From positions 1 to 37,469 of the IMG/VR virus record IMGVR_UViG_3300005827_000092: 37,469 nt of DNA; one strand, given 5' to 3'. Shown in pieces: positions 13,628-36,804 of the stretch. The notes under the pieces were generated by a model. The model was not told the origin of the DNA and made no database searches. It was given only the letters and a program-made list of their open reading frames with translations. Positions within the stretch are counted from its first letter, which is position 1; every line of letters begins with the position of its first letter. Both the position numbers and the translations under genes were made by a program. The DNA is from a virus.

Positions 13628-13642
13628 ATAATATAATCCTAT

Positions 13643-13679
13643 AAAAAAAAGGGTCACCCTAAGTTAATAGAGTGACCCT
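13643..13679 (-). terminator. intrinsic terminator after major capsid gene
   Basis: On the minus strand AGGGTCAC pairs perfectly with GTGACCCT, followed by eight T residues. It lies just downstream of the capsid stop at 13695, the same place as the T7 late terminator after gene 10. The following structural and tail genes would be reached by read-through, which fits the need for far more capsid than tail protein. Confidence 0.9.
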
Positions 13680-18546: not shown

Positions 18547-18568
18547 AGTCTTCCAATTGGGCAACCAT
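18547..18568 (-). promoter_or_regulatory. candidate phage RNA polymerase promoter (head genes)
   Basis: Minus strand reads ATGGTTGCCCAATTGGAAGACT, one of four close copies of GGTTGCACAATTGGA in the window. It sits between the PhoH stop and the first head gene, where a late promoter is expected. This copy has C instead of A at the seventh base of the motif, so it may differ in strength. Confidence 0.65.
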
Positions 18569-19248
18569 TAAATGCCAACCTTATCGAACGCTTTGACCCA
18601 CATGGCGCATATATCGCTTCTTACAATATCGTCCACAGTGAACTCAATGTGAGGGACAGGCAGGGACTGTTTCTGGATCATCTTCAGGACAGTGAGCAAC
18701 CCGGAGTCAGCCTTGAGGTCAGACTGCTTGATGTCTCCGTTGATCACCACCTGACTTTCATCTCCGATCCGGGTGAGGAACATCTTCATTTCTGAAGGGG
18801 TAGTGTTCTGTGCCTCATCGAGGATCACGAAAGCGTTGTGAAAGGTTCGCCCCCGCATGACCTCAAAGGGGACGATGTCAATGGAACGCTTCTTGGTCGA
18901 GGTCTCAAAGGCCCCAGGACCCAGGTGCTGCTCGATGACATCGGTGAAGGGGATCACCCAGGGGGCCATCTTCTCCTCCATGGTGCCAGGGAAGAACCCC
19001 AGCGATCTACCTGACGGGACGTTGGGACGGGTCAGGATGATCCTCTCGACCTTCCCCGCAGCAAACAGTCGGGCAGCCCAGGATGCGGCGATGTAGGTCT
19101 TGCCCGTTCCTGCGCTGCCTGTGACGATCACCTGTGGGGAACTCTTGAGAGCCTCCATGTAGGCAGCCTGTTTGTCGTTCTTAGGGAGAAGAGGGATTGA
19201 GCCCGTCGTCTCCTTTGCACGGTACTTACTGTTTCGTTTGGTAGTCAT
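18568..19248 (-). CDS. phoH: PhoH-like ATPase
   Basis: The 226-residue product has Walker A GSAGTGKT (44-51), Walker B FVILDEAQNTTPSE, and GDIKQSDLK, the signature of the PhoH/PhoL P-loop family. These proteins are frequent in phages of aquatic bacteria; an RNA-related role is suspected but the phage function is not established. The gene starts directly after the nrdB stop (TAAATG) with no clear ribosome site, implying coupling, and it is the last gene before the promoter that opens the head genes. Confidence 0.92.
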   Translation of the reverse strand: MTTKRNSKYRAKETTGSIPLLPKNDKQAAYMEALKSSPQVIVTGSAGTGKTYIAASWAARLFAAGKVERIILTRPNVPSGRSLGFFPGTMEEKMAPWVIPFTDVIEQHLGPGAFETSTKKRSIDIVPFEVMRGRTFHNAFVILDEAQNTTPSEMKMFLTRIGDESQVVINGDIKQSDLKADSGLLTVLKMIQKQSLPVPHIEFTVDDIVRSDICAMWVKAFDKVGI

Positions 19249-20220
19249 TTAGTCGTTGGCCCAGACATCCGCCCAAGATCCGCTCAGTGCACCCTTGGCA
19301 TATTCTGTAGCTCTGTTCTCAAAGAAGTTAGTGTGCTCAACGCCATTCAAGATCCAATCCAACCATGGAAGGGGATTGTCCTTGACCTTAAAGTTCCCTC
19401 GCAGGCCCAGCGAAATCAGACGCCGGTCAGCTACGTAGCGGATATATTGCTTCACCTCTTCAGGGGTGAGGCCTTGAATACCTCCTTGTTCAAAGGCCAG
19501 ATCAATGAAGTTGTCTTCCAGCCGGACCATCTCCCGGGCGATATCATAGATGTCCTTCTTGAATTCGTCGGTGACAACTTCAGGATGCTCATCCACAAAT
19601 GCTCGGAACAGCTTGATCATCCCCTCCACATGCAGGGACTCATCACGGATCGACCAAGTGACGATCTGTGACATCCCCTTCATCCGGTTGAACCGGGAGA
19701 AGTTCAGTAGGATGACGAAGGAGGAGAAGAGCTGGAGGCCCTCACCAAAGGCACTGTAGGTAGCCAGCGTCTTGGCGATCTTGGACTTGTCTGAACCCTT
19801 GGTGTCGAAGCCAGCGAAGTAGTCATGCTTCTCTGCCATCTCCTTGTAAGCAGTGAAAGCAGCGTACTCGGCCTCAGGCATCCCCACCGTATCCAGAAGG
19901 AGGCTGTAGGCGTGAGCATGAACAGCTTCCATGGCTGCAAAGGAGGTCAGCATCATGCGGACTTCTGGGGGTTGGAATACAGGCAGGAACTTATCAATGT
20001 AGCCTGCGGCAATATCCACATCCCCCTGAGTGAAGAAGCGGAAGATCTGGGTCAGCAGGTTCTTCTCTTCCTTAGAGAGCTTCGTATTCCAATCCACGAC
20101 ATCATCGTGAAGAGGGACTTCCTCAGGCAACCAGTGCATCTGGTTCTGAGCCTTGTAGGCCTCAAAGGCCCACGGATACTGGAACGGTTTATAATTAGTA
20201 CGGGGTACAAGCAGGGACAT
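19249..20220 (-). CDS. nrdB: ribonucleoside-diphosphate reductase class I, beta subunit
   Basis: The 323-residue radical-generating subunit. The di-metal site is visible: D67/D69 region (TQGDVDIAAGY), E98 and H101 (MEAVHAHAY), E160 (SAFGEGLQ), E194 and H197 (RDESLHVEG). Y105 occupies the position of the radical tyrosine. ATG 20220 is chosen over upstream codons because it immediately follows the NrdA stop (TGATATG). With NrdA it makes deoxynucleotides for phage DNA. The C-terminal tail (after about 310) should bind the alpha subunit. Confidence 0.95.
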   Translation of the reverse strand: MSLLVPRTNYKPFQYPWAFEAYKAQNQMHWLPEEVPLHDDVVDWNTKLSKEEKNLLTQIFRFFTQGDVDIAAGYIDKFLPVFQPPEVRMMLTSFAAMEAVHAHAYSLLLDTVGMPEAEYAAFTAYKEMAEKHDYFAGFDTKGSDKSKIAKTLATYSAFGEGLQLFSSFVILLNFSRFNRMKGMSQIVTWSIRDESLHVEGMIKLFRAFVDEHPEVVTDEFKKDIYDIAREMVRLEDNFIDLAFEQGGIQGLTPEEVKQYIRYVADRRLISLGLRGNFKVKDNPLPWLDWILNGVEHTNFFENRATEYAKGALSGSWADVWAND

Positions 20221-20221
20221 A

Positions 20222-21976
20222 TCAACCTTCGCAGGATAAACAGCCCTCATAGTCATTCAGAGCGGACCGGGCAATCTTTGTTGAGACTGTCTCGGCACGT
20301 CGAATGGCTTCGGAGCGTAAATAGTATAGGGACTTCAGGCCCTTCTTCCATGCACGGAAGTGTACATGGTGAAGCAGGGTGACGTCGGCATTGGCAGGGA
20401 GGAACACATTTACACTTTGCGCTTGGCAGATGTACTCTTGTCGTTCGGCTGCATGATCTACAATCCATCTCTGGTCAATCTCGATGGCGGTCTTGAACAC
20501 GCCCTTTTGGGTTTCGTCTAGGAACTGCAGATGTTGCACAGAGCCCCCATTGGTAATGATCGAGGACCACACCTCGTGTGTGTCCTTACCCATCTCAGCG
20601 AGCACCCTAGTCAGGTACGGGTTCTTCACCAGGAAGGAGCCAGTCTTGGTCTTCGCGGTGTAGGCGTTGGCCCGATACGGTTCGATGGATGGAGAGGTAT
20701 CCCCGCAGATGATCGATGAGGATGCGTTGGGAGCAATCGCCATCAGGTGCATGTTGCGGACAGGATCGTTCAAGCTGGAGTCAGGAGCAGCTCCTCGTTC
20801 CTTCGCTAGTTCGCGGGTGGCTTGTGAAGCGTGCTCTTTGATGTGCTTGAAGATCTTGTGGTTGATACCCACGGCCATCGGGGAGTCAAACGCCAGCCCA
20901 TAAGACTGAAGGAGGGCGTGGAAACCCATAGCGCCAAGACCAATACTGCGCTCCTGACTTGCCGAATAAACCGCCTTCGAAAGTTCTGGCGGCGCACTTG
21001 CAATGAAGTAGGACAAGACATTATCTAGAAACCTCACTAGGTCTTTAATGAACTGAGGGTTGTCCTTCCACTCATCCCAGGTCGCCAGGTTCACGGACGA
21101 CAGGCAGCACACCGCGGTGCGCTCATCGTTGGTCGGAAGGGTGATCTCGGAGCAGAGGTTGGACTGGTGAACAGCCAGGCCCAGTTGCTTCTGTGACTCA
21201 GGGAGTGCCCGGTTGGAGGCATCGATGAAGTGGATGTACGGCTCTCCAGTTTGCATCCGCATATCAAGGAGGCGCTGCCACAGGTCACGAGCCGGGAGGG
21301 TTTTCACGACCACCTTGGAATGGGGGTCAATCAGGTCCCAATCTGCCCCACGCTCTACTGCCACCATGAAGGCATCCGTGATGTTCACCCCATGGTGGAG
21401 ATTCAGGCATCGGCGGTTGGAGTCACCACCTGAGGGCTTGCGCATCTCCAGGAACTCTTCGATCTCCGGGTGGGAGATGTCGAGATAGGCAGCATAGGAA
21501 GCCCGCCTGGTCACACCCTGAGCAAACGCAAGAACCTCCGCATCTACAACCTTCAGGAAAGGAATGGCACCAGAAGAGCGGCTGCCTCCGGACGTGTTGA
21601 CACCGTTGGAACGGACCCTACCCCAGTAGCCACCAATGCCTCCTCCCATGGAGGACAGCCAGGCGTTCTCTGTGTAGTGCCCCGTCAGCCCACCGCGGCT
21701 ATCCGGGACGAAGTTGAGGAAACAAGAGATGGGCATCCCGCGTTTTGTTCCTCCGTTCGAGAGTATGGGGGTGGAGAACATGAACCACAGCTTCGAGGCG
21801 TAGTCATAGATTCGCTGGGCCATTTCGGGGCTGTCCGAGAAAGCCTCGGCTGCACGGGCGAAGGCATCCTGAGGGGACTTCTCGCCATCAGCGAAATAGC
21901 GGTCAGCCAGTGTGGTGATACCAAACGGAGTGAGAAGGCTATCTCTGGAATAATCAATCTTAACGGTCGTCACCAT
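20222..21976 (-). CDS. nrdA: ribonucleoside-diphosphate reductase class I, alpha subunit, short form
   Basis: ATG 21976 (AAGGCA upstream) gives 584 residues. Active-site features: PISCFLNFVPDS (redox cysteine), NLCSEITLPT (the N-x-C-x-E radical site), SSVNLATWDEW, and C-terminal CLSCEG (C579/C582) that re-reduces the active site. E. coli NrdA has 761 residues. The N-terminal ATP-cone is missing: the protein begins directly with the catalytic domain start (SLLTPFGITTLADRYF). It may therefore escape the usual dATP shut-off. The start overlaps the MazG gene end by 17 bases, and nrdB follows directly. Confidence 0.95.
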   Translation of the reverse strand: MVTTVKIDYSRDSLLTPFGITTLADRYFADGEKSPQDAFARAAEAFSDSPEMAQRIYDYASKLWFMFSTPILSNGGTKRGMPISCFLNFVPDSRGGLTGHYTENAWLSSMGGGIGGYWGRVRSNGVNTSGGSRSSGAIPFLKVVDAEVLAFAQGVTRRASYAAYLDISHPEIEEFLEMRKPSGGDSNRRCLNLHHGVNITDAFMVAVERGADWDLIDPHSKVVVKTLPARDLWQRLLDMRMQTGEPYIHFIDASNRALPESQKQLGLAVHQSNLCSEITLPTNDERTAVCCLSSVNLATWDEWKDNPQFIKDLVRFLDNVLSYFIASAPPELSKAVYSASQERSIGLGAMGFHALLQSYGLAFDSPMAVGINHKIFKHIKEHASQATRELAKERGAAPDSSLNDPVRNMHLMAIAPNASSSIICGDTSPSIEPYRANAYTAKTKTGSFLVKNPYLTRVLAEMGKDTHEVWSSIITNGGSVQHLQFLDETQKGVFKTAIEIDQRWIVDHAAERQEYICQAQSVNVFLPANADVTLLHHVHFRAWKKGLKSLYYLRSEAIRRAETVSTKIARSALNDYEGCLSCEG

Positions 21977-22271
21977 TGCCTTGTATTGTGTTGTTGGTTT
22001 TTCGATTTGACAGCTTCTCGATGTTGCCGACAGCAATATCCTCTAGAGTAAAGTTGTAGTCACTTGCGACTGCCGTAAGGCACCACAGGATATCTCCAAG
22101 TTCTTTCTTGGCCTGTTGCAGATAGTCGCTCTTGGCCCCATCACGGATAGCTTTTGCTTCCAGCGACATCAGCTCTCCAACTTCCCCTGACAGATTCATC
22201 AGGGCGTAGAGGGCGTTAGCTGAAGGCAGGCGGAACCTCAGCGCCCCATGCATGTATTCATTCAGGTGCAT
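21960..22271 (-). CDS. MazG-like nucleotide pyrophosphohydrolase
   Basis: ATG 22271 has GAGGAAATCT upstream; the longer open frame is not needed. The 103 residues show the metal-binding pattern of the all-alpha NTP pyrophosphohydrolases: LSGEVGELMSLEAKAI and KKELGDILWCLTAVAS. The family hydrolyses nucleoside triphosphates to monophosphates. In a cluster with nrdA/nrdB and ThyX, a role in the nucleotide pool or in clearing (p)ppGpp-like signals is plausible but inferred. It overlaps both neighbours slightly. Confidence 0.85.
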   Translation of the reverse strand: MHLNEYMHGALRFRLPSANALYALMNLSGEVGELMSLEAKAIRDGAKSDYLQQAKKELGDILWCLTAVASDYNFTLEDIAVGNIEKLSNRKTNNTIQGNGDDR

Positions 22272-22548
22272 AGATTTCCTCGTAATTCTCAATGAGATAT
22301 TCAAGGTAGTGCTTGGCTTTCTCCAAGTCCTCGACCTTGCCCTTGCCCTTGTGGCGCAGGGCATACTTGACAATGTTCCCTTCCCAGTAGTTCAGATCCC
22401 AAGCACGTATAATATCCCACGGTTGAATAGGGTTGAAATAGTGGGTGCCACCTACCTGATGGTGGGATTTATCTTCCTGCGAGTCAAAGGATATAGCGGG
22501 GAATGAAGCGAGCGGGTCGCCAAAGATGTGGTTCAAGTCGGAGTCCAT
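22258..22548 (-). CDS. DUF3310-type phage protein
   Basis: The 96-residue product contains the complete family pattern: VGGTHYFNPIQPWDII, then YWEGNIVKYALRHKGKGKVE, then LEKAKHYLEYLIE. These proteins are frequent in phage nucleotide-metabolism regions and are sometimes called nucleotide kinase-like; no activity is proven. It overlaps the exonuclease stop by 16 bases and the MazG start by 14 bases, so all three are translationally linked. The N-terminal 25 residues are variable. Confidence 0.85.
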   Translation of the reverse strand: MDSDLNHIFGDPLASFPAISFDSQEDKSHHQVGGTHYFNPIQPWDIIRAWDLNYWEGNIVKYALRHKGKGKVEDLEKAKHYLEYLIENYEEIYAPE

Positions 22549-23315
22549 AAAATGATTTTCTTCTGAATGTCGTCGTAGTCAGTTGCCCGAAGGATACGCG
22601 CAACACGGGCCTGGGTAAGAGCCTCTTCTTCACCGAACCCTGCCTTTTCGTAGGCAGCGACAACGTGCTTCCAATAGATCTCCTTGAGCTGCTTGGGGTT
22701 GGCCCATGGGGTACCCTCATCAAGAGCCTTCTGGAGGATCTTCTCGGCACCCACAGGTCCCACCCCTGGACAGCCTGCATAGCCATCCGAGGTGTCCCCC
22801 GTGAGGGTCTGGATCATGTGCCACTTGTCAGCCTGGTGCTCAGTGATCTCAAAGAACTCATCGCGGCCAAAGTTGTAGTGCTTACCGGGGATCGTTTTTA
22901 GATCCTTGTCGGTTGTGCAAATGATGAACTCACGGGCAGGGTCTAGTTTACTCTTGGTGGTCGCCCAGATACCAAGAACATCATCACCCTCAAGAGTTGG
23001 GATGCTGATGCAGCCGTACTTATTGGCATATTGCCTGACCCATTTGAGAAGCATGGGCTTACGGGTCTCTGCACGGTTGCCCTTGTAGGTAGGCAGGACA
23101 TCCTTGCGCCAGTTCATGGAGTCCGAGAATGCCAGCAGGAAGTTGGCTGCCTCGACCTTCTCAAGGACCCTGTTCAGGGAAGTCTCGAAGGCCAGGGCAG
23201 CTTCCTCCTCGAAGGCGTGAAGGGTCCACAGCCCCTCCCCCCAGTCAGTAGCTTTCTCACTTACTGCAGCGGCTTGGTAGGCTAGGATGTCGGCGTCGAT
23301 GAGAGCAGTGCGCAA
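22533..23315 (-). CDS. 5'-3' exonuclease (T7 gp6-like, FEN family)
   Basis: TTG 23315 is taken as start because AAGGAAAAGAC lies just before it and the N-terminal metal-binding strand begins there (MRTALIDADILAYQAA). The 260 residues carry FEN-type acidic clusters: LIDAD, LEGDDVLG, TTDKDL and LTGDTSDG, with the helix-hairpin-helix CPGVGPVGAEKIL. T7 gp6 (300 residues) removes RNA primers and degrades host DNA. The start overlaps the thyX end by 34 bases. Confidence 0.93.
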   Translation of the reverse strand: MRTALIDADILAYQAAAVSEKATDWGEGLWTLHAFEEEAALAFETSLNRVLEKVEAANFLLAFSDSMNWRKDVLPTYKGNRAETRKPMLLKWVRQYANKYGCISIPTLEGDDVLGIWATTKSKLDPAREFIICTTDKDLKTIPGKHYNFGRDEFFEITEHQADKWHMIQTLTGDTSDGYAGCPGVGPVGAEKILQKALDEGTPWANPKQLKEIYWKHVVAAYEKAGFGEEEALTQARVARILRATDYDDIQKKIILWTPT

Positions 23316-23971
23316 GTCTTTTCCTTTGGTTCAATGTTCATTAAAAATTCCCAAGAGGTTGGAAATAACTCACCCATTGTGTCGGATACCAATTGAGCAA
23401 TCTCTCTGGTTTCCTTCTGGGTATGGGAGTCTAGTCGCAGGGAACACATCCTAGCCCAAGCGTAGAGGGTGCCACTCCAGATCCACTCGGTCATGGTGTT
23501 CTGAGGGAGAACCATCCGTGCCTGCTCAGCACAGACACCTTCCATCAACAGGATTTTGTAAGTAGCCAGAGCATCTTCTGAAGCCCTCTCAGCAAACTGC
23601 GGTGAAATGTCTGCAGCCTCATCACTGGACCCCTGCTTCACATTGGCTGCTGCCTTGCGCCACACCTCTGGGATGTAGAACTCAGGATCATCATTGACGT
23701 AGCGCCTGCTCACCTCGTTCCAGCTAAAGCCAACCGTGTGCTTCACGAGTTGGCGGGCCACGAAGATCGGAGCCTTGACGCGGAAGGATGCTGAGCAATG
23801 AGCGAAGGGAGACCAGTGGTTATGCTTGGCCAGGTACTTGATGAGTCCCCGGTCAGTTGTTTGGTCAAACTCGTCGTGCTCTTTGGCAAAGCTAACCCGG
23901 GCTGCATTCACAACGGTCAGGTCTGAACCCATATGGTCCAGAAATTCAACACTCATGTCAGCAATATTCAT
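23282..23971 (-). CDS. thyX: flavin-dependent thymidylate synthase ThyX, divergent motif
   Basis: The 229-residue product makes dTMP from dUMP with FAD and folate. GGAGTAAG precedes the ATG. Family features: VNAARVSFAK, HNHWSPFAH, and the motif region RQLVKHTVGFSWNEVSRRY (73-91). The canonical form is RHR-x7-S; here it reads KHT with one extra residue before the conserved S, so the signature is changed though N85, E86, S88, R90 and Y91 remain. Some podophage ThyX proteins show a similar form. Grouped with ribonucleotide reductase genes for DNA precursor supply. Confidence 0.9.
   Translation of the reverse strand: MNIADMSVEFLDHMGSDLTVVNAARVSFAKEHDEFDQTTDRGLIKYLAKHNHWSPFAHCSASFRVKAPIFVARQLVKHTVGFSWNEVSRRYVNDDPEFYIPEVWRKAAANVKQGSSDEAADISPQFAERASEDALATYKILLMEGVCAEQARMVLPQNTMTEWIWSGTLYAWARMCSLRLDSHTQKETREIAQLVSDTMGELFPTSWEFLMNIEPKEKTCALLSSTPTS
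23383..23406 (-). promoter_or_regulatory. weak match to the phage promoter motif inside thyX
   Basis: Minus strand reads GATTGCTCAATTGGTAT, sharing TTGC, CAATTGG and TA with the strong copies but differing at two or three bases. It lies about 70 bases before the exonuclease start. It is inside a coding region (EIAQLV), so chance is possible; recorded as a candidate only. Confidence 0.3.
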
Positions 23972-23972
23972 C

Positions 23973-24371
23973 TTACTCCTTGGTTAACTCTGTAGTACTG
24001 GTGGTGGAAATGACGGCAATGTATTCTGCTACGTGGGGATTTTCCACGAGAACTGAGGACAGTCCTGTGGCCAATCTGTGGGTGATCATCTCTTCGTCTA
24101 CTTGGCCCATCATGATGCGCATGTAATACATGATCATGTGGATCACTTCGTGCAGGAAGGTGTCCATCTCTTCGACGGGGGTCAGGCCTTCCAAAATTCG
24201 GATGCGTTGTTCCTTGGAATAAAAGTCACCAAAGGCATCAGATCCCCATGGGCCTTCTTCAAGAAACTGCACCGAGATATTCCGGCCCATGAACACCAAG
24301 TTCTCTGGGCGATACACCTTGTGATCTAACAGTTCTTGAGCTTCGTCCTGCTGTTCAATAGCTTCATTCAT
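23973..24371 (-). CDS. small HExxH protein, putative metallopeptidase
   Basis: The 132-residue product carries FLHEVIHMIMYYM (HEVIH at 74-78) followed by DEEMITHRLATGLSSVL, where an acidic residue could be the third zinc ligand. This layout (HExxH, then an EE..xHxLA helix about 15 residues later) is seen in small SprT/ImmA-like phage metallopeptidase proteins. AAGGATTTCT precedes ATG 24371, which overlaps the previous stop (ATGA). The target is unknown; inactivation of a host regulator is only one possibility. Confidence 0.7.
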   Translation of the reverse strand: MNEAIEQQDEAQELLDHKVYRPENLVFMGRNISVQFLEEGPWGSDAFGDFYSKEQRIRILEGLTPVEEMDTFLHEVIHMIMYYMRIMMGQVDEEMITHRLATGLSSVLVENPHVAEYIAVISTTSTTELTKE

Positions 24372-24571
24372 AGAAATCCTTCTTCACGGAGAAGTCCCAG
24401 ACCCCCCTCCGTTATTCGCCATATACGCCCGTACTGGTGTGGGGCTACTTTTGTTGTGATCAAACCAAGACAAGCCAGAGCGGCAATCTCTTGGTCGAAC
24501 TGTCGCGCCGTGCCTGACTGGAGAGAAAGGCCACTGCGGTAAACCTTATGAAGAAGTTCGGTTCGGTTCAT
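24368..24571 (-). CDS. small winged-helix-like protein (67 aa)
   Basis: ATG 24571 follows the DNA polymerase stop by one base. The product (MNRTELLHKVYRSGLSLQSG, then QFDQEIAALACLGLITTKV, RIWRITEGGLGLLREEGF) has the spacing of a winged-helix DNA-binding fold: three helices, then a beta wing ending in RITEGGLxLL, a common wHTH ending. A longer frame to 24601 overlaps polymerase and is not needed. Regulatory or accessory replication role is inferred. Its stop overlaps the next ATG (ATGA). Confidence 0.65.
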   Translation of the reverse strand: MNRTELLHKVYRSGLSLQSGTARQFDQEIAALACLGLITTKVAPHQYGRIWRITEGGLGLLREEGFL

Positions 24572-24572
24572 A

Positions 24573-26363: not shown

Positions 26364-26402
26364 GCTGTCCCTTTCGACTAGCTAAAAATTTTTCGAGCTA
26401 AA

Positions 26403-26603
26403 TTATTTGCCCATCACGTACCGAGCGTAACGCTGGCCGGTCACCGGGTGCTTCTTATGCTGGGTCTCGATCTGAAACCCTTCGTCCCGCAGCTCGCTGA
26501 TACGTTTGGTCAGGGACTGGATCGAGTAGTCGATCAGTGCCTCACGCTGCGAAATGCTGCCGGTGCGATAAAGGTGGTGAAGGATAATGTCGTTCTGTGT
26601 CAT
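26403..26603 (-). CDS. helix-turn-helix protein (66 aa)
   Basis: ATG 26603 has AAAGAAG upstream; a GTG at 26615 in frame lacks a site. The product (MTQNDIILHHLYRTGSISQR, then YSIQSLTKRISELRDEGFQI, then GQRYARYVMG) is a typical compact winged helix: a recognition helix (SIQSLTKRISELRDEG) and a wing with YARYV. Such proteins are common near phage replication genes. Its role is unknown. It lies between the primase block and DNA polymerase. Confidence 0.75.
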   Translation of the reverse strand: MTQNDIILHHLYRTGSISQREALIDYSIQSLTKRISELRDEGFQIETQHKKHPVTGQRYARYVMGK

Positions 26604-26615
26604 GGCTTCTTTCAC

Positions 26616-26909
26616 TCAGGAAATGTATTCTGGCGGAACTACGTACAGGGGGAACTCAAGGAACTTCGTATGTGCGGTGAAGCGTCGAGCGGCGTAATTC
26701 TGGTGTGAATTCTCCAGCAAGACGGTCGGAAGCTTATCGGCGTTTGGTGACAGGTTGGCAGATCGAGGGGGGCTTTGTGACCAACGGACAATTTCGGCGT
26801 ATTCCTCCGGCGTAACCAAGATGTGGGCCACCTCACGGTGGTTCCTTTTGGCGTCATCAATGCGTTCGTAAATCTCGTCGATTACGGTTGGCTTGAGAAC
26901 AACTTTCAT
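26616..26909 (-). CDS. hypothetical protein (97 aa)
   Basis: ATG 26909 overlaps the primase-helicase stop (TAATG) and has CGGAGTTTTA upstream. The product starts MKVVLKPTVIDEIYERIDDA and has VAHILVTPEEYAEIVRW, then FLEFPLYVVPPEYIS. I recognise no family; the middle looks like a helix-strand unit found in several small phage proteins with an ‘ILVTPEEY’ type motif. It is part of the replication operon by spacing. Confidence 0.7.
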   Translation of the reverse strand: MKVVLKPTVIDEIYERIDDAKRNHREVAHILVTPEEYAEIVRWSQSPPRSANLSPNADKLPTVLLENSHQNYAARRFTAHTKFLEFPLYVVPPEYIS

Positions 26910-28522
26910 TAAAACTCCGAGTTAGTTTCGTCTTTGAAATCACCAGAAGTCTCTGAGAGACGACCAGTGTCACGATTATACAGTAAGTACCCGGCCTCCC
27001 CTGTCTCACCACTAAAGCGGTTCTTCAGGATACGCAGAGTTGTTACGTTGGGGTCCTCACCTTGCTGGTTACGCTCAAGGCCAATGACCATGTCGCTGAG
27101 TTGCCCGATAGCTGCTGAGCCACGGAGCTGAGACAGTGAAGTCTTGGCCCCCTCCTCATGCCCTTTGCCATCCGAAGGACGCTTAAGGTGTGACACGAGG
27201 AACATCCCTACCCCAGTCTCTTCGACCAGGGTACGCAAGGAGGTCATCGCATTGTCTATGAGTCTGCGCTCGTCGCCATCCCCAAGGCCTGAAACTACGA
27301 TGCTGAGATGGTCGAGAACAATCCAGCCACAACCACACCCACGAGCAAGGAAGCGAACACGGGAAACCAGATTTTCAATGTCACTGGAGCCAAAGTGGTT
27401 GTATAGAAATACCTTCCCAGACCCGACAGTGCTGTCAAACGCTCTCTTAATATCAACTTCATCTACACCCTCTCTGCTCAAATGGAGCGGTTTGTTAAGT
27501 TCAATACCCATGAGACCCAGTGCAGTGCGCTTTGGGTTCTCCTCTAACATGATCATTCCCACTGTCTCACCAGACTTGATGAGGTGGTGGGCGATCTCTC
27601 GGACTATGGCTGACTTACCTACACCTGAGCCTGCAGTCATGGTCACCAGCTCACCCTTGCGAGCACCGTGAGTGATCTTGTTGAGTCCTTCCCAGGGATA
27701 GGCTACCGAAGGAATCACCTCGTTGGAGGAGACCTCAGCCCAGAGATCTTCACCTGCCAGGATACCATCAGGGCGGTAGACCTTGGCGTTCCACATGGCT
27801 GCAACAATCGCCTCAGGCTGGCCCTTCTGGAGGCACTCATTGGCATCCTTGAAGGGCAGCGTGGCGATCTTGGCCTTGCCAGGTTCGAAGAGCTGCACAC
27901 ACTCGGCGGCAGCTTCCTTTCCAGGCTCATCCATGTCGAACATGAAGATGACTTCTTCGAACTTGTTGAGGTACTCCAAATTTTTGGCAATGGATTTTTT
28001 TGCACCACTGGCACCGTTAGGTACAGAGACCACTGGCCACTTGTTGCCCTGAACCTGAGAGACTGTCATGCAGTCGATCTCACCTTCAGTGACAATGATC
28101 TTCTTGCCTGAGTTCCAGAGCTGAGATCCGAAGAGACACGCAGACTGGCCCTTGGTATCCCCTAGTACCGGGAAGTCCTTACTGGGGGTACGGATCTTTT
28201 GGGCAATAAGGGTTCCACTCGCATCGTAGTACGGGGCAATCTGGGCAGTGCGCCCTTGGTACTCTCCAACCTGGTAGCCAAATTTCCTGCAGGTGTCCTC
28301 GCGGATACCTCTCTTGATCAGGTCTTGGTATGACCCAGAGATCAATCCTCGTTCCTTCTTTTCGGTCTGAACTGGTGCGTCCGTGCATGTACCGTCACCC
28401 TTGACGTGTGTGTTGCAGGCAAAGCAGAACTGGTGATTGTCCGAGTACAAAGAGTTCCCCTCGGACGAGCCGCAGTTCTCACAGGGAATGTGTCTCAGAA
28501 ATGTACTTTCGTCCTTTTGCAT
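26909..28522 (-). CDS. DNA primase-helicase (T7 gp4-like)
   Basis: ATG 28522 (AAAGATTT upstream) gives 537 residues; a GTG at 28546 would overlap the previous gene. The zinc-binding domain has C14, C17, C33 and C36 (CENCGSS, FCFAC). The TOPRIM-type primase core has VTEGEIDCMTV and FMFDMDEPG. The helicase has Walker A SGVGKS, GWIVLDHLSIVVSG with the Walker B acid, and the C-terminal LKNRFSGETGEAGYL block. The C-terminal tail is acidic with a final Phe (KDETNSEF), as in T7, where the tail contacts polymerase. It unwinds DNA and makes primers at the fork. Confidence 0.96.
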   Translation of the reverse strand: MQKDESTFLRHIPCENCGSSEGNSLYSDNHQFCFACNTHVKGDGTCTDAPVQTEKKERGLISGSYQDLIKRGIREDTCRKFGYQVGEYQGRTAQIAPYYDASGTLIAQKIRTPSKDFPVLGDTKGQSACLFGSQLWNSGKKIIVTEGEIDCMTVSQVQGNKWPVVSVPNGASGAKKSIAKNLEYLNKFEEVIFMFDMDEPGKEAAAECVQLFEPGKAKIATLPFKDANECLQKGQPEAIVAAMWNAKVYRPDGILAGEDLWAEVSSNEVIPSVAYPWEGLNKITHGARKGELVTMTAGSGVGKSAIVREIAHHLIKSGETVGMIMLEENPKRTALGLMGIELNKPLHLSREGVDEVDIKRAFDSTVGSGKVFLYNHFGSSDIENLVSRVRFLARGCGCGWIVLDHLSIVVSGLGDGDERRLIDNAMTSLRTLVEETGVGMFLVSHLKRPSDGKGHEEGAKTSLSQLRGSAAIGQLSDMVIGLERNQQGEDPNVTTLRILKNRFSGETGEAGYLLYNRDTGRLSETSGDFKDETNSEF

Positions 28523-28533
28523 AAATCTTTCGG

Positions 28534-29127
28534 TTAAATGCCCCACTGGGAGGCCATTGCTTCGGCTATACCTTTGTAGGTTTCACTTCGGATCTTCCAA
28601 CGATCTGCTGAGGGAGCCAGCTTGTTCTGACCTGAGTCAGTCTGGTTTCCCCATCGCTTCTTCCCATCGACAATCCGTGGGGCCACCATCTCGGTGGGCT
28701 TCAGAGGGGCCAGGCCCTTGAGCCACAGGCACGTCTTCTTGCTGGCATCATGGCCAAACATATAGGGCGTGATGATCTGGTCAGGCTTCCTGATCCTGCT
28801 GGAGATGACACTCACTGGGTTCTCCAGTGCGATCCGTTCGATTGGCGCATTGAGCAGCAGACGAACGAAGTCGAGGGCATCCTCAGTGAGCTGCGGGTCT
28901 CGCAGGCCACGGGTTGTTCAGTGCATTCCAGAGACCGACAGGTAGGTACACGGTGGGTGTGCGACCATGAGGTCCCATCCATCATTGATGATGTCCATGA
29001 CATCACCTTGGTAATGAGGGCCGGGACTGTCTGTCGGGAGAAGGTCGCAACTCAGAGCTTCATGGCCTTTGGCAATAAACGCATCGCGGACTGCTCCGCT
29101 GTATTCACAAGCAACCAGTACTTTCAT
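28534..29127 (-). pseudogene. cytosine-C5 methyltransferase-like gene interrupted by TGA
   Basis: ATG 29127 has GGAGTTTT upstream. The frame reads MKVLVACEYSGAVRDAFIA, the catalytic-type loop AHPPCTYLSVSGMH, then TGA (28918-28920), and continues in the same frame TTRGLRDPQLTED, IERIALENPVSVIS, RIRKPDQIITPYMFGHDASK to 28534. Related phage proteins carry Trp there (SGMHWTTRGLRDP), so one base change (TGG to TGA) explains the break. PPC and ENP match motifs IV and VI. With Trp 70 the protein has 197 residues. It could be a true nonsense mutation, a sequence error or read-through. Upstream promoter motif and ribosome site are intact. Confidence 0.85.
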
Positions 29128-29149
29128 AAAACTCCAAGTTGAAAATGGT

Positions 29150-29605
29150 TTAGTTATCCAATTGTGCAACCTTCAGCCACTCAGCCACATCAAACGATGG
29201 GCAGGCCTTAGCTACTTTCGGGAAATCTCGGTGCCCCTGAACCTTTGCGTTGGGGTATCGGGTCTTCAGATCCACCAGGAGCTTCTTCAATGACTCGAAC
29301 TGTGCCTTGGTGAAGTTGTTCTGAGCCTTGGTGTGATCGTCAGCACTCACGCCCCCGACCATGCAGATGCCAAGTGACACTGAGTTCCAGTCGGCCACAT
29401 GGGCACCGACCACAGCTTCATCTCGACCCTGCTCGACAGTGCCGTCACGGCGGATCACATAGTGATAGCCAATGCAGGTCCATCCCTGCTTACGGTGCCA
29501 CTTGTCGATGTCTGCCGCACCAAAGTTCTGGTTGGCGGTCGCACTGCAGTGGATAGCAATGAAGTCAGTCTTCTCTCGCTTCTTTGTATTAGCTTTGTAT
29601 ACCAT
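29150..29605 (-). CDS. N-acetylmuramoyl-L-alanine amidase (T7 lysozyme-like)
   Basis: The 151 residues match T7 gp3.5. Zinc ligands are H19 (IAIHCSAT), H125 (GHRDFP) and C135 (ACPSFD); Y47 and K133 are the catalytic helpers. GYHYVIRRDGTVEQGRDE is the family core. It cuts the bond between peptidoglycan peptide and glycan at lysis; in T7 the same protein also binds RNA polymerase and lowers its activity, which may hold here. AAAGAAGA precedes the ATG, which overlaps the upstream HNH gene by 17 bases. Confidence 0.95.
   Translation of the reverse strand: MVYKANTKKREKTDFIAIHCSATANQNFGAADIDKWHRKQGWTCIGYHYVIRRDGTVEQGRDEAVVGAHVADWNSVSLGICMVGGVSADDHTKAQNNFTKAQFESLKKLLVDLKTRYPNAKVQGHRDFPKVAKACPSFDVAEWLKVAQLDN
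29152..29173 (-). promoter_or_regulatory. candidate phage RNA polymerase promoter (methyltransferase/primase)
   Basis: Minus strand reads AAGGTTGCACAATTGGATAACT, matching the other copies over 15 bases. It covers the last codons and stop of the amidase gene and lies about 30 bases before the methyltransferase-like start. It is the clearest case that the DNA motif, not a free intergenic spacer, is kept. Confidence 0.7.
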
Positions 29606-30029
29606 TCTTCTTTAAATACCTTGCGGCATTTTCAATGTTGGGGATCGAATCCTTAAACAATCCTATGGCGGCGTTGCAGGGGTGGCATAGTAAACCACGC
29701 ACTTGACCAGAAGTATGGCAATGATCGATCATAAATAACTTGTTCCGTTCTTGAGTATTAAACTCAAGCGTGGTGCTACATATTTCGCAGCGACCACCGC
29801 TTCGTTCGACTAAATTTTCGAGTTGTTCGGTGGAAATGTTATAGCGGTGTTTTATTGCATACTTTTTGCGGGTATCGTACCCTGCATGTTTCTGATAAAC
29901 GGACATGCAATCCTTACAGTACGCCTGTTTTCCACTAGGCCTAGTCTTGTGGGACGAGAACTCTTCCGGAGGCTTCGCTATTTGACATTTGCTGCAGAGC
30001 AAGCATCCTTGCTTTGTCTGCGGGTTCAT
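29589..30029 (-). CDS. free-standing endonuclease VII-like HNH endonuclease
   Basis: The 146-residue product shares architecture with the intron enzyme at 14520-14987: a CSKCQIAKPPEEF / CKDC zinc site, CEICSTTL, and the catalytic DHCHTSGQVRGLLCHPC then NAAIGLFKDS. It is of the endonuclease VII-type family. It overlaps the end of the endonuclease I gene by 89 bases and the amidase by 17, and no gene here is split, so it is free-standing. It is probably a homing enzyme inserted beside endonuclease I; an extended, HNH-overlapping C-terminus of endonuclease I supports insertion. Confidence 0.85.
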   Translation of the reverse strand: MNPQTKQGCLLCSKCQIAKPPEEFSSHKTRPSGKQAYCKDCMSVYQKHAGYDTRKKYAIKHRYNISTEQLENLVERSGGRCEICSTTLEFNTQERNKLFMIDHCHTSGQVRGLLCHPCNAAIGLFKDSIPNIENAARYLKKNGIQS

Positions 30030-30456
30030 TTTTCCAATCGTTGGGGATCAGCCTGTCCGCATATGGAAACCCATACTTGTCCGCCCAGTTGCCATAGGTG
30101 GTCTTACTGCGCTTACTGATCTTGGTTTTTGAATTTGAGAAGACGAAGCGTATATCAAGCTGCGGGTATTGCTGCTTTATAAGTATCATCTTCTGACGGT
30201 CCTCAGTCAGGTATCTGCCCTTAGACTCAACGATGATGCCGTTCTCAAGTACAAAATCTGGCGTATATCGCGACTGCTTTGCTGGTTTTACGTAGCGAAT
30301 AACCAACTCTTCATAAGAAAACCCCACCCCGCAAGAGGTGAGGTCTTCTGCAATCGCTTCTTCTAAGCCGGACCTAAAGCCGTACTTTAGGCCCACTTGA
30401 TGTACTGAGAGAGGCGTCTTAGAAGTCCTCGTCGGACGTTTCTTCAGCAAAGCCAT
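29941..30456 (-). CDS. endonuclease I, Holliday junction resolvase (T7 gp3-like)
   Basis: ATG 30456 gives 171 residues (T7: 149) and overlaps the SSB end by 38 bases. Family blocks: YGFRSGLEEAIAEDL, RYTPDFVLENGIIVESKGRY with the PD-(D/E)xK acids and Lys, LDIRFVFSNSKTKI and TYGNWADKYGF. The enzyme resolves branched DNA and breaks host DNA. The C-terminus after NDWKNEP runs on about 30 residues (ALQQMSNSEASGRVLVPQD) in a region shared with the next HNH gene, so it is probably a new extension made by the insertion. A longer upstream frame is not supported. Confidence 0.93.
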   Translation of the reverse strand: MALLKKRPTRTSKTPLSVHQVGLKYGFRSGLEEAIAEDLTSCGVGFSYEELVIRYVKPAKQSRYTPDFVLENGIIVESKGRYLTEDRQKMILIKQQYPQLDIRFVFSNSKTKISKRSKTTYGNWADKYGFPYADRLIPNDWKNEPADKARMLALQQMSNSEASGRVLVPQD

Positions 30457-31030
30457 TCTGTGCAGCGGGGGTATCTTCCGCCTCGTAACCCTCTTCCTGG
30501 CCGAAGCCATAAGCCTCGGAACTTGCGCCACCAGAGAACTCGACCAGGTTAATGACCTGGACAGCCTTCAGTCGTAGCGAGATGCCTGCACCAGCGATGG
30601 CGGTGTAGTAGGGGACCAACTCGTAGGCCACCTTGACCTTGGAGCCGCCACCAATCTTGGCATCGGCACCAATGGGCTTACCCTTGGCATCAAAGAGAGC
30701 TGGGCGCTGCTCGAAGGGGTCGCCCATCTTGGGGGTGACCTTGGCCTTCAGCTTGAAGCGGACAGTGACAGCACCCGTGTCGTCATTGACTGAGTAGGGT
30801 ACGTCGCCTTCCTTGATCTTCTTGCCTGGGTTTTCCTTCTTGGCCTTGGCCACAGAGACTGCGAACTGCTCATCCAAAAAGGTGACGATGTCCTGAGCTG
30901 CTGCTCCGGGGATCTCTACAGAGATCTTGTACTCGCCATCACTGTTGAATTTAGTATCTGGCTTTGTCAGATATGGATACTGTGCAATACCTGCTGGAGT
31001 TGTGTAACGTTGAGCCTTAGGCTTCGACAT
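30419..31030 (-). CDS. single-stranded DNA-binding protein (T7 gp2.5-like)
   Basis: The 203 residues match T7 gp2.5 (232). The OB-fold region includes YPYLTKPDTKFNSDGEYKIS and VKVAYELVPYYTAIAGAGIS with LRLKAVQVINL. The acidic tail ends ETSDEDF; in T7 the acidic tail with terminal Phe is needed for contact with polymerase and helicase. It begins inside the last codons of the upstream HNH gene (14-base overlap). Confidence 0.95.
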   Translation of the reverse strand: MSKPKAQRYTTPAGIAQYPYLTKPDTKFNSDGEYKISVEIPGAAAQDIVTFLDEQFAVSVAKAKKENPGKKIKEGDVPYSVNDDTGAVTVRFKLKAKVTPKMGDPFEQRPALFDAKGKPIGADAKIGGGSKVKVAYELVPYYTAIAGAGISLRLKAVQVINLVEFSGGASSEAYGFGQEEGYEAEDTPAAQNGFAEETSDEDF

Positions 31031-31532
31031 ATTCTTCCTTGAATGAATTACTCTTAATGCGGTTTTCTAGTGGGCTTAGCAACTGGAGGTTTGCTTCAGT
31101 GTGTAATCCACATACATTTGGGTTATTAAGAGGGACGATGTGATCAACCTGCATCCCTTGTTCAGATGCTCGGGCATACAGGTCTTTTATAGCGGAAGTG
31201 TCAGCCCAAGCAGGAGTAGCGTCTATGATTTTCGCTCTCCGATTAGCTGTGTAGCTGTTCCGCTTTCCTGGATTTTTTTGGTTCCAGTCTTTGACGGCCT
31301 TGTTTGTCATCTCTCGATGCTTCTCAAGGTTGTCGTTGCGCCACTTGTAGACAAGCTCTCGTCCACGCTCTTTGTTGTTGTCCCACCAGTCTTTATTTCT
31401 GAGGGCCTTACATTCGGAGCATGTCCCGTCTAGTGTCCACCGTTTGGCGATGTGCCCATGTTTACAGGGCTTACCAGTGTAGTACGAGGACTGTCCCCGC
31501 TCTTTGGCTTGCGCCCTGTTAACGAGTTCCAT
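31017..31532 (-). CDS. free-standing HNH endonuclease
   Basis: The 171-residue product has a CKHGHIAKRW / CSECKAL zinc pair at the N-terminus, a charged helical middle, and a C-terminal HNH block: MQVDHIVPLNNPNVCGLH, then EANLQLLSPLENRIKSN. It is of a different HNH subgroup from the two endonuclease VII-like proteins. It overlaps the SSB start by 14 bases and follows a 37-residue gene closely; the ribosome site is weak. Neighbouring SSB and RNA polymerase are whole, so it is not in an intron. Confidence 0.88.
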   Translation of the reverse strand: MELVNRAQAKERGQSSYYTGKPCKHGHIAKRWTLDGTCSECKALRNKDWWDNNKERGRELVYKWRNDNLEKHREMTNKAVKDWNQKNPGKRNSYTANRRAKIIDATPAWADTSAIKDLYARASEQGMQVDHIVPLNNPNVCGLHTEANLQLLSPLENRIKSNSFKEEYVEA

Positions 31533-31535
31533 AGG

Positions 31536-31649
31536 TTAGTTGTTGAAGTAGCCTGCGTAGGCTTCTTTCATTTCTGCAATGATCTGGTTGCGCTCTGCTA
31601 CACAGTTGGCAATGCGGAAGGTGCCGTCAGGCATAACGATCTGAAACAT
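31536..31649 (-). CDS. very small protein (37 aa) after the phage promoter
   Basis: ATG 31649 has a strong ribosome site (AAAGGAAACCT) and codes MFQIVMPDGTFRIANC then VAERNQIIAEMKEAYAGYFNN. The composition looks protein-like, with a short strand pair and a helix. It is the first gene after the promoter-like motif at 31672-31693 and ends four bases before the HNH start. I recognise no family. Confidence 0.6.
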   Translation of the reverse strand: MFQIVMPDGTFRIANCVAERNQIIAEMKEAYAGYFNN

Positions 31650-31671
31650 AGGTTTCCTTTAGAGGGGCTTG

Positions 31672-31693
31672 AGTATTCCAATTGTGCAACCAT
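31672..31693 (-). promoter_or_regulatory. candidate phage RNA polymerase promoter (SSB block)
   Basis: Minus strand reads ATGGTTGCACAATTGGAATACT, identical to the other strong copies over GGTTGCACAATTGGA. It lies between the RNA polymerase stop (31744) and the 37-residue gene, the equivalent of the first T7 class II promoters after gene 1. Confidence 0.7.
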
Positions 31694-31743
31694 AGGCCTC
31701 AGCGTTGGGTTGCCGAGGCGATATGGTTTCCATTTGGTAAGTG

Positions 31744-34257
31744 TTAAGCGAAGCAATAGCGCGATTCCAACACCTGAGAGAGTCCCAGAGTGCCTCTTTG
31801 TGGGAGAGCTTCCAGTTTCCCCCGGTTCTTCTCACCGAGTTGCTGCCAGATCTCGTCCTTGAAGGACTCCAGCACCTCCACCTCGGTGTACATCTCCACA
31901 AAGCTCTCCCGCACCACATGGTAGAGCTGCTCGACATCCCCTGCCGTGGTCCCGAAAGAGTCGTGGATCATTGCAAAGCTATCGATGCCTGCCTGCTTGG
32001 CCCTCACCACGGTCAGCATCATATGCGCTGCATCACAGGAGTGGACATAGTTGGGGGCGATCCCCTGAGACTGAGCCCTGCGGTCCAGATTGTCCTTGTC
32101 CTGGTACATCGTCAGGTAGACCAGCTTGCCGTTGATGGCGGTCTTCACCTTGCGCTTCTCCAGGTCAGGGTAGGCCTGCATCACAGGGAATCCCACAGGA
32201 GTCGTCCAGCGGACAGGGAGTTCCTCAGAGGCAGCCAGAGATGCCGCATGTTGCAACCACTTCATGGCTTCACCGGCCTTGACGAGCACCTGGTTCACCG
32301 CCACCCAGATGGCCTTCGCCATGTACTGGGCACCCTGGTAGCCATCCCCCTGGAAGGGGAATTCCTTACCGGACTGCTTGGCGGGACGGATGATGTCCTC
32401 CATGAGCTGCTCCTTGAAACCGTACTCCTTGGAACCGTAGGCCAGCGTCATGACGGACCGCTTAGTGACCTTGCGGGTGATCCCAAAGGCGTTCCACTGG
32501 GACGCGATGGTCTTGGTGCCCTGCTTGACGTAGGCAACTCCCTCATCGGTGTGCCTCAGCTCGTCCTCAGTTCCCTCTGCCATGTCTCTCTTGGACTGCT
32601 CGATGACCTGGTTGGCGACTAGCTGGTAGACATCTGCGGGAAGTTCTCGGGGCACAAGGTTGACTGCGGCTCCTCCCACTTCATCTCTGAGCATGGCCGA
32701 AAAGTGCTGGATGCCAGAGCATGAACCGTCCATAGCCACGGGCAATTTCGATACGAACGACTCACCATGCTCAGTGAAACCCGCCCACTCGAAGCAAAAC
32801 GCAAGGAACTGCCAGGGTTTGTCGATCTCAACATCTCCGATTGTTGAACACCACCCTCTGGAGTTAAATGGATCTCTCGCAATACTAAGTATTTCATCTT
32901 CGTTGTCCTGAACCCAGTTGACACGGTCTTCAAAGCTGGCCTTGTCGAAGCCTGCCACGTTGGCGCCATGGATAGCCAACCACTTCCACCCCTCGGAACC
33001 CAGGGGCTTGCCATGAGCAAACCTCAGGAGGGCCTTCTGATAGTCGCTTCCCTGAGGATTCAGGTGGGGCACCGCGTAGATGCGACCCCGGAAGTCGAGC
33101 TGGTAAGGGAAAAACAGCTTGCGAAACTTCTCGTATCGACGGGCCAGCCCCAGAGCCATGTTGAAGCCGATCCGCTGGCCCAACAGTGAGAGGTTCTGGA
33201 GGTGGGTCTTGGCTGCCTCAATGCGCCACTCCTTCTTGGCCTCCTCGTTGGTGTCGATGTCATGGGGGACAGGAGGCACCTGGATGCCATCACGGGCAGG
33301 AATCCCGGCGATCTCAGAGCCTCCCTCCCAGAGCTGCTCCATGACCTCCAGCACCCCCGAATTGATCTGCCATGCTGTCCGCTGAAGGGCGTTCACCGCA
33401 TCGTAGACGATGGGCATGTCGGTGTTCTTCAGCTCGTCCAGGTAGGCCTTGTTCTTGGTCTTGACGAGCTTCAGGGGTTTGATGTTGGAGGAGATGTAGC
33501 CCCCGTTGAAGGGCGTGGTCCAATCCTTGGGCTGCACCACCATGGGTTCGTAGACGGGCCGCAGGAACTGCACGACCCCGTTCTTTTTCTCGATCCACTC
33601 GATGGTCTCAGGCAGGGCCTTCACGTACTTGATCGACTGGTCCTTATCGACTTTCTGGTGGGTCAGCTCGACCAGCCCCACGGTGGCGATCAGGATGTCC
33701 AGCATCTTCACCCCGACGTGCAGCCGGTCTGTCCTAGCCCAACGCTTCCAGCCATCCTCAAGGCGGTCCGCCTGGCGCACGGCGTAGATGTGGCGGTAGT
33801 GCCCTGAGGTGCGCTTCTTGGCCCCCACCAGGATCTTCTCGTAGGCCTTGCGCTCATTCTCCCGGATCTGAGCGAATCGCAGCTCATCCTCGATGGCTGT
33901 GCCGATGGAGACCCCAACGAACTGAAGGGTCCTCAGGCTTGAGATGCCCGACAGGACAGCCTTGAGGGACAGGAACGCCAACAGGGTGTTTGGGACATCC
34001 TTGATCTTTGGGTAAGTCGCAGAGCGTACCCCAGCGGCACCCTTGGACATTGACTCCTTCCACTCCTCGATAGCCTTTGCGAGGACCTCCAGGCGGTGGG
34101 ACAGGATGGTGGTCCCGTATGCTGTGGACTCCTCACGACCCGTCTGGACAGACTTGTAGGCATCCCGCATGTACCTCTCGGCACCTCGCTGGGTCATCCC
34201 TTCTTCCAAGGAAATCTGGATGGACATTAAGTCTTCTTCTGGAGCGTTCATAAACAT
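31744..34257 (-). CDS. single-subunit DNA-directed RNA polymerase (T7 gp1-like)
   Basis: The 837 residues (T7: 883) contain all catalytic residues: D510 (PVAMDGSCSGIQHFSAM), K599 and Y607 (RKVTKRSVMTLAYGSKEYGF), H765 and D766 (FAMIHDSFGT). The C-terminus SRYCFA resembles the T7 FAFA foot. The promoter-specificity loop region (about 697-720, DLEKRKVKTAINGKLVYLTM) differs from T7, in line with a different promoter sequence. AGGA lies ten bases before ATG 34257. It is preceded by one promoter-like copy and follows the early genes. Confidence 0.97.
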   Translation of the reverse strand: MFMNAPEEDLMSIQISLEEGMTQRGAERYMRDAYKSVQTGREESTAYGTTILSHRLEVLAKAIEEWKESMSKGAAGVRSATYPKIKDVPNTLLAFLSLKAVLSGISSLRTLQFVGVSIGTAIEDELRFAQIRENERKAYEKILVGAKKRTSGHYRHIYAVRQADRLEDGWKRWARTDRLHVGVKMLDILIATVGLVELTHQKVDKDQSIKYVKALPETIEWIEKKNGVVQFLRPVYEPMVVQPKDWTTPFNGGYISSNIKPLKLVKTKNKAYLDELKNTDMPIVYDAVNALQRTAWQINSGVLEVMEQLWEGGSEIAGIPARDGIQVPPVPHDIDTNEEAKKEWRIEAAKTHLQNLSLLGQRIGFNMALGLARRYEKFRKLFFPYQLDFRGRIYAVPHLNPQGSDYQKALLRFAHGKPLGSEGWKWLAIHGANVAGFDKASFEDRVNWVQDNEDEILSIARDPFNSRGWCSTIGDVEIDKPWQFLAFCFEWAGFTEHGESFVSKLPVAMDGSCSGIQHFSAMLRDEVGGAAVNLVPRELPADVYQLVANQVIEQSKRDMAEGTEDELRHTDEGVAYVKQGTKTIASQWNAFGITRKVTKRSVMTLAYGSKEYGFKEQLMEDIIRPAKQSGKEFPFQGDGYQGAQYMAKAIWVAVNQVLVKAGEAMKWLQHAASLAASEELPVRWTTPVGFPVMQAYPDLEKRKVKTAINGKLVYLTMYQDKDNLDRRAQSQGIAPNYVHSCDAAHMMLTVVRAKQAGIDSFAMIHDSFGTTAGDVEQLYHVVRESFVEMYTEVEVLESFKDEIWQQLGEKNRGKLEALPQRGTLGLSQVLESRYCFA

Positions 34258-34338
34258 GTCAAGTGGTTCCTGTTGTAGTGGTAACTATAGATAATGTAAC
34301 TTAGAATAAACCTTAAAAAGGTATTCTAGAGTCTACTC

Positions 34339-34377
34339 TTAGAGGTCTCTCTTCAGTCTATCCAATTGTGCAACCAT
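34339..34377 (-). CDS. possible 12-aa leader peptide before RNA polymerase
   Basis: ATG 34377 follows a near-perfect ribosome site (AGGAGGAGAACGCA) and reads MVAQLDRLKRDL then TAA. It overlaps the promoter-like motif at 34354-34377, so ATG may simply be part of the motif. Still, the strong site in a non-coding stretch is notable. It could be a leader peptide or chance. Confidence 0.3.
   Translation of the reverse strand: MVAQLDRLKRDL
34354..34377 (-). promoter_or_regulatory. candidate phage RNA polymerase promoter (before polymerase gene)
   Basis: Minus strand reads ATGGTTGCACAATTGGATAG, then ACTG. It lies about 100 bases before the RNA polymerase start, in the 189-base non-coding gap 34258-34446. 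A promoter here would let the polymerase raise its own transcription. Confidence 0.65.
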
Positions 34378-35885: not shown

Positions 35886-35911
35886 GTTGCCCACTGATTC
35901 CAATGGGCAAC
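35886..35911 (-). promoter_or_regulatory. perfect 8-bp hairpin in the leader of the 61-aa gene
   Basis: On the minus strand GTTGCCCA pairs with TGGGCAAC around ten bases. It begins about 20 bases after the TATAAT at 35930, so it would be at the 5' end of a transcript from there. No T tract follows; an operator or a stabilising 5' hairpin is more likely than a terminator. Confidence 0.5.
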
Positions 35912-35929
35912 GATTGGCAATCGGTACGT

Positions 35930-35938
35930 ATTATACCA
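35930..35938 (-). promoter_or_regulatory. extended -10 host promoter
   Basis: Minus strand reads TGTGGTATAAT: a perfect -10 with the TGn extension. No good -35 is seen 16-18 bases upstream. It overlaps the stop of the 269-residue gene and would serve the small early genes 35836-34447. Confidence 0.5.
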
Positions 35939-36740: not shown

Positions 36741-36774
36741 GGTGTGTAGTCCTATGAATGATTGAGAGGAGGCA

Positions 36775-36804
36775 ATTATTGTCACTTGGCAAGTGTTACG
36801 TCAA
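36775..36804 (-). promoter_or_regulatory. sigma-70-type promoter with palindromic spacer
   Basis: TTGACG (36804-36799), an 18-base spacer, and AATAAT (36780-36775): five of six bases match at each box. The spacer contains CACTTGCCAAGTG, an inverted repeat (CACTT/AAGTG), a possible operator. The promoter would drive the 269-residue gene and is placed in the gap after 36813. Confidence 0.6.

Follow-up and report, generated by a model that had tools for sequence, protein, structure and literature searches.

RNA polymerases of the single-subunit T7 type are already known to form polymerase–promoter pairs that differ in specificity. For T7 itself, the published contacts pair residue N748 with promoter bases −10/−11, R756 with −9, and Q758 with −8 (PMC5937735). 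In Pseudomonas phage LUZ100, whose transcription starts have been mapped by ONT-cappable-seq, one phage promoter (phi1) lies before the polymerase gene, two (phi2 and phi3) lie after it, and a fourth (phi4) spans the stop codon of the amidase gene. The named phage with the polymerase closest to the one studied here (66%) is Bordetella phage vB_BbrP_BB8 (Gyeongsanvirus); the paper on it describes no promoters (the word "promoter" is absent).

The DNA analysed here, which we call the window, comprises 37,469 bases and is a linear virus record. Its genes follow a T7-like order along the minus strand. The early genes are succeeded by those for RNA polymerase, single-stranded DNA-binding protein and endonucleases, amidase, primase/helicase, and DNA polymerase; next come exonuclease, ribonucleotide reductase, and PhoH, and after these the genes for portal, scaffold, capsid, tail, and internal virion proteins. 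A sequence-only reading had proposed that a motif repeated in this DNA is the promoter of the phage polymerase. Conservation of position, concerted change, and covariation with the specificity loop all support that proposal, and from these sequence comparisons we put at roughly 96% the probability that the motif serves the phage's own RNA polymerase, a single-subunit enzyme of the T7 type, as its promoter. The candidate promoters, and the amidase gene that one of them overlaps, are as follows:

34361..34375, minus strand: promoter copy 1 (−12 to +3), exact motif, predicted +1 G at 34363, upstream of the RNA polymerase gene
31677..31691, minus strand: promoter copy 2, exact motif, predicted +1 at 31679, ahead of the ssDNA-binding/endonuclease block
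29157..29171, minus strand: promoter copy 3, exact motif, predicted +1 at 29159, ahead of the primase/helicase block
29150..29605, minus strand: N-acetylmuramoyl-L-alanine amidase gene (PHROG 822), whose last codons (KVAQLDN and stop) contain copy 3
18552..18566, minus strand: promoter copy 4, one mismatch (C at −6), predicted +1 at 18554, before the portal block

The motif GGTTGC[A/C]CAATTGGA is present four times in the window, every copy lying on the minus (transcribed) strand and before a gene block, as had been claimed. The first three copies are exact instances of the 15-letter GGTTGCACAATTGGA, and copy 4 is GGTTGCCCAATTGGA; the description of four near-identical copies thus holds, with the qualification that copy 4 carries a C at −6 which is itself kept at the portal site in the clade genomes checked. 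The plus strand of the window contains no copy at up to one mismatch, and a backwards control pattern has no match in the window. At up to three mismatches there are five matches, compared with 1.12 expected in shuffled sequences (five being reached in 1 of 100 shuffles), but so loose a count makes the motif look weaker than it is: chance would not be expected to produce three exact 15-mers in 37 kb. Using a 30-column matrix trained on sites of the clade, the window's own among them, the four sites score 35.8–43.0 bits, while the next match in the window reaches 2.8 and the best antisense match 2.3. Copy 1 lies 104 bp upstream of the RNA polymerase gene (its equivalents in clade relatives are 117–146 bp ahead of the polymerase match), and copy 2 lies 52 bp 3′ of that gene (equivalents 24–57 bp past the polymerase stop). 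The amidase stop codon (29150–29152) is 4 bp beyond the end of copy 3. Downstream of copy 4 come a 62-codon ORF and then the portal gene, with a leader of only 8 nt to the next ATG (18546).

In T7 numbering, the window promoter would be laid out as GGTTG-CAC-AATT-GGA, with GGTTG from −12 to −8 as the recognition sequence, C−7 [A/C]−6 C−5 as the core, AATT at −4 to −1 as the melting region, and G+1 G+2 A+3 as the start. In the window this part is CACAATTGGA at three sites and CCCAATTGGA at one, and the resemblance to the T7 core that had been pointed out is borne out by alignment of C−7 A−6 C−5, the AT-rich −4 to −1 stretch, and GG at +1/+2. Upstream of the motif, the sequence is A/T-rich at −15 to −13 only, −17 being mostly C/G and −16 C/T. 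Within the window clade, portal-site promoters have C at −6 and those around the polymerase gene have A, even where the recognition bases differ, and the two sets are possibly two promoter classes.

We fetched forty relatives using the polymerase as query; phage records with a match to the polymerase number 2,593. In close relatives, all three positions around the polymerase gene are occupied by the identical motif. Six clade genomes of 41–42 kb (L006, L009, L010, L011, L018, and L042) have strong copies on either side of the polymerase gene, with others at the end of the amidase gene and ahead of the portal block, for a total of four to six strong copies per genome; the expectation of copies before late genes in complete genomes is thereby borne out. 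In five of the six, an extra copy lies over 3.5 kb upstream of the polymerase gene, a position beyond the end of the window. A contig whose polymerase is identical to the window's (L005) shows this upstream copy as GGTTGCCCAATCGGA, and the window's own would lie past its end. No strong copy is found upstream of the capsid and tail genes of the clade, and the late region therefore seems to depend on one promoter.

More divergent genomes were compared without supplying the motif, by finding the best 16-mer shared between the 260 bases before and the 150 bases after the polymerase gene. In most genomes with both flanks, 14–16 of the 16 letters match, whereas shuffled sequences reach at most 14, and the shared 16-mer is the homologous motif in a genome-specific form. 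The form in the window clade is the 15-mer given above, and forms elsewhere include GGTCCTACAATTGGA and AGTCCGACAATTGGA, CCCTGCACAATTGGA, TATTGCACAATTGGT, GGTTGCCCAAACGG, and TGTCCCACAATTGGA, among others. In divergent relatives the motif is thus altered yet common to the sites of each genome, changing together with the polymerase; for several genomes, a full reading showed the variant at additional sites. We used the flank comparison in place of an unsupervised whole-genome motif search, which returned mostly codon-periodic and repeat artefacts. One relative (L029) has two different shared CAC-core motifs around its polymerase gene, CTTC followed by CACATTCGG and GGGAC followed by CACATAAGG.

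The enzyme proposed to read these sites, and the part of it that would contact the recognition bases, are located as follows:

31744..34257, minus strand: single-subunit RNA polymerase, 837 aa (PHROG 414, E 3.1e-284; T7 RNA polymerase in PDB, 4.2e-186)
32077..32172, minus strand: specificity loop (T7 739–770 region; polymerase residues about 696–727), placed by alignment with T7, T3, K11, SP6, and gh-1 and by covariation

The PDB match to T7 RNA polymerase spans residues 10–837 of the window protein. Compared with T7 RNA polymerase, its AlphaFold model (mean pLDDT 86, with the loop tip poorly determined) gives Z scores of up to 48.7; for the T7 promoter complex 1cez, the score is 44.8. Catalytic residues D510, K599, Y607, and D766 fall at the T7 positions in the PDB alignment (T7 D537, K631, Y639, and D812) and are invariant in a 34-sequence alignment. 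Full-length homology, predicted fold, and catalytic residues together indicate that this is a T7-type single-subunit RNA polymerase (Autographiviridae). The loop, by contrast, differs from that of T7, as the sequence-only reading had stated: in T7 numbering its residues are K703 at 746, K705 at 748, L712 at 756, and Y714 at 758, so that T7 N, R, and Q at 748, 756, and 758 are replaced by K, L, and Y. The polymerase match is broken in L223–L227, from five different metagenomes, with 31–33 stops in the frame in which the match starts; a frameshift or insertion in the gene would account for this.

We then calculated mutual information between promoter bases and about 700 aligned columns over 43 dereplicated polymerases, with the promoter register set by hand in the main table; an automatic version agrees, with some wrong calls. 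In the curated set, the top-ranked column for base −11, and also for −10, is 748. For base −8 it is 758, and here the residue fixes the base in every case: G goes with Y, F, or M, C with K, R, or E, and T with Q. Under the automatic calls, 748 ranks first for −11 and second for −10, and 758 ranks first for both −8 and −9. The top pairs, 748/−11 and 758/−8, are contacts published for T7. On a tree built from the polymerases with the loop left out, at least 10 changes are counted for base −8, with the same minimum for residue class 758; base −11 and residue class 748 changed 8 times each, and independent pairs are concordant in 7/7 cases for −8 and 758 and 6/6 for −11 and 748; for 4 of the 47 tree rows (L155, L166, L132, and L100), the promoters had been found using the predicted pattern described below. 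By covariation, then, the recognition bases −12 to −8 appear to match the loop of the polymerase encoded in the same genome.

Taken jointly, these observations make it likely, in our judgment, that promoters of this clade have been rewritten many times, at most of their sites, each time along with changes of one or two loop residues, that the resulting code is transferable, and that at least one genome (L017) represents an intermediate. As part of this likely reading, an aromatic residue (or M) at 758 would specify G−8, a basic residue C−8 or A−8, and Q T−8; at 748, a basic residue would specify G−11, an acidic one C−11, and an aliphatic one A−11. Such a code would extend what T7, T3, SP6, and K11 already show. 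The known enzymes fit it in part: T3 and gh-1 (D748, Q758) have C−11 and T−8, and G−11 is found in SP6 and K11, whose residue 748 is R or K. Two misfits are that K758 occurs with C−8 in these relatives, yet with A−8 in SP6 and mostly A−8 in K11, and that LUZ100 (D748) lacks an obvious C−11.

The polymerase of L017 and the promoters after its gene are of the GGTTC kind, with K758, while its late promoter (genome G006, oriented position 17368) is of the GGTTG kind. Compared with L010, its structural module is 88% identical and its polymerase region 76%. This looks like a recombination that left a mismatched late promoter; an assembly chimera is a possible explanation as well, given that the L017 and L010 contigs both come from one metagenome.

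The loop can also be used in the forward direction. From K748, L756, and Y758 alone, GTTG followed by a C-type core is predicted near the polymerase gene, and we looked for it in genomes whose flank comparison had shown no such motif. The predicted GGTTGCAC was found beside the polymerase gene in four of them, with three copies in L132, two in L100 (W758), and one each in L155 and L166, and was absent from the opposite strand near these genes. The L155 and L166 sites (GGTTGCACTATAG and GGTTGCACTCTATG) lie 22–23 bases into the downstream flank, and the polymerases concerned share about 40% and 37.5% identity with that of the window, roughly as distant as that of T7. The prediction failed in L118, L122/L124, and L035.

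One alternative is that the motif binds something other than the polymerase, such as a repressor or an origin or replication factor, or that it is a packaging signal. The CCAATTGG of copy 4 is palindromic, the annotated primary origin of T3 adjoins a promoter, and for temperate relatives it has been proposed that MarR-like repressors bind near the polymerase promoter (PMC10134795). However, relatives have lost the palindrome (positions −4 to −1 being ATAA, AAAC, or ATTC) but keep the asymmetric −12 to −5, the orientation is always with transcription, and the identity of the bases follows that of two residues in the specificity loop of the polymerase. We consider such a site very improbable as the explanation of the motif, which may nonetheless have a second role as origin.

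Conservation of coding sequence, whether of a repeated (M)VAQL(D/E) peptide or of the amidase C-terminus, might also account for the repeated letters. The frame GTT GCA CAA TTG is open in each of the four copies, copy 3 encodes the amidase end, and the sole change among the window's copies, GCA to GCC, leaves the amino acid of that frame the same. Against this, the amidase ORF stops before the motif in L010, L016, L024, and L042, where the motif or its genome-specific form is retained (in L017, the ORF chosen for this check is not the amidase). Because of indels downstream of the portal site, relatives differ in frame there, the L011 genome lacks the ATG, and in divergent relatives the letters change without keeping the peptide. 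Because the motif persists past amidase stops and its frame varies at the portal site, it is the DNA and not the peptide that is conserved, in agreement with the earlier claim that conservation there is independent of amidase coding; the coding explanation is largely refuted by these comparisons, and we hold out very little chance for it. Although the copies do precede gene blocks, neither a host promoter of the sigma-70 type nor a repeat arisen by chance merits serious consideration, as no sigma-70-like pair coincides with a copy (4 pairs in the window versus 12 expected in shuffles), and the score gap to the next site and the conservation across relatives also speak against these readings.

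Returning to the motif as promoter of the phage polymerase, its recognition would involve K705 (T7 748), most likely reading G−11/T−10, and Y714 (T7 758), reading G−8. LUZ100 has phage promoters at the same three positions, and because of this correspondence the window would be expected to work like LUZ100. The first phage polymerase would presumably be made by the host polymerase; copy 1 would then let the enzyme amplify expression of its own gene, the replication and nuclease genes would be under copies 2 and 3, with copy 4 as the late promoter for the head and tail genes. Both the start at the G of GGA and this order of expression are inferred, as is a possible role of the GGAAG at +1 of copy 4 as ribosome-binding site. 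Single-sequence folds for an RNase III-type hairpin in the leader of the polymerase gene are unconvincing (z −0.1 to −2.5), and Rfam at the gathering level gives no match in the window. Farther upstream, an inverted repeat with promoter-like sequence (GTTGCCCATTGGAATCAGTGGGCAAC) lies at about 35890–35915 on the minus strand; similar repeats occur upstream of the polymerase gene of relatives, and it is perhaps a terminator or operator.

Several other features of the window deserve mention. The major capsid gene is split after codon 55 by a 519-bp insertion (14484–15002, minus strand), a group I intron with an HNH/endonuclease VII ORF (RF00028, 40.6 bits, E 6.4e-9, below the gathering score). 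The capsid gene is uninterrupted in seven close relatives, and nine other phage contigs (L234–L242) have a related endonuclease and a capsid gene split near codon 53 or 55. Two further endonuclease VII-like ORFs (29589–30029 and 31017–31532, minus strand) lie in the replication region between copies 2 and 3. Between the capsid and tail genes, a 552-aa ORF (11999–13657, minus strand) has no PHROG match, and the sole match of an early 284-aa ORF (35931–36785, minus strand) is phrog_2554, of unknown function.

In a literature search, whose coverage mostly leaves out subscription papers so that absence is unproven, we found no study of natural loop–promoter covariation; as far as this incomplete coverage goes, both the pairing of GGTTG with K748/Y758 and the natural covariation across the clade are new. 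GGTTG read by K748/Y758 would be unlike the recognition sequences of characterised enzymes, and could be an orthogonal expression tool. If natural sequence sets make promoter specificity readable from two residues, promoters become predictable in uncultured phages, and it is now testable how a phage shifts the specificity of its polymerase when several promoters must change too. A signal and the residues reading it, changed together in dozens of related viruses, would amount to a readable natural DNA-recognition code.

Among the characterised systems, the window polymerase is 41% identical to that of T7 over its whole length and has the same fold. The T7 promoter TAATACGACTCACTATAGGGAGA shares C−7 A−6 C−5, the AT-rich melting region, the GG start, and reading by a specificity loop, but has CGACT where the window has GGTTG and TATA where the window has AATT; the window also lacks a clear AT block at −17 to −13 (C/T at −16, A/T at −15 to −13). 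Its loop differs from that of T7 at the three residues noted above and is one residue shorter, its polymerase gene has a phage promoter of its own, and the one late copy found in the window is fewer than in T7. SP6 and K11 are alike in having a basic residue at 748 and G−12 G−11, their GGTGA and GGGCA sharing GG with GGTTG, but their usual forms have K758 and A−8 in place of Y758 and G−8. LUZ100 differs in its promoter, ATTACCACACAGGTATGGA, and in its loop (D748, R756, and L758). Finally, BB8 has a similar motif both before (GGTTGCACATAAGG) and after (GGTTGCACATATGG) its polymerase gene, with ATAA/ATAT where the window has AATT.
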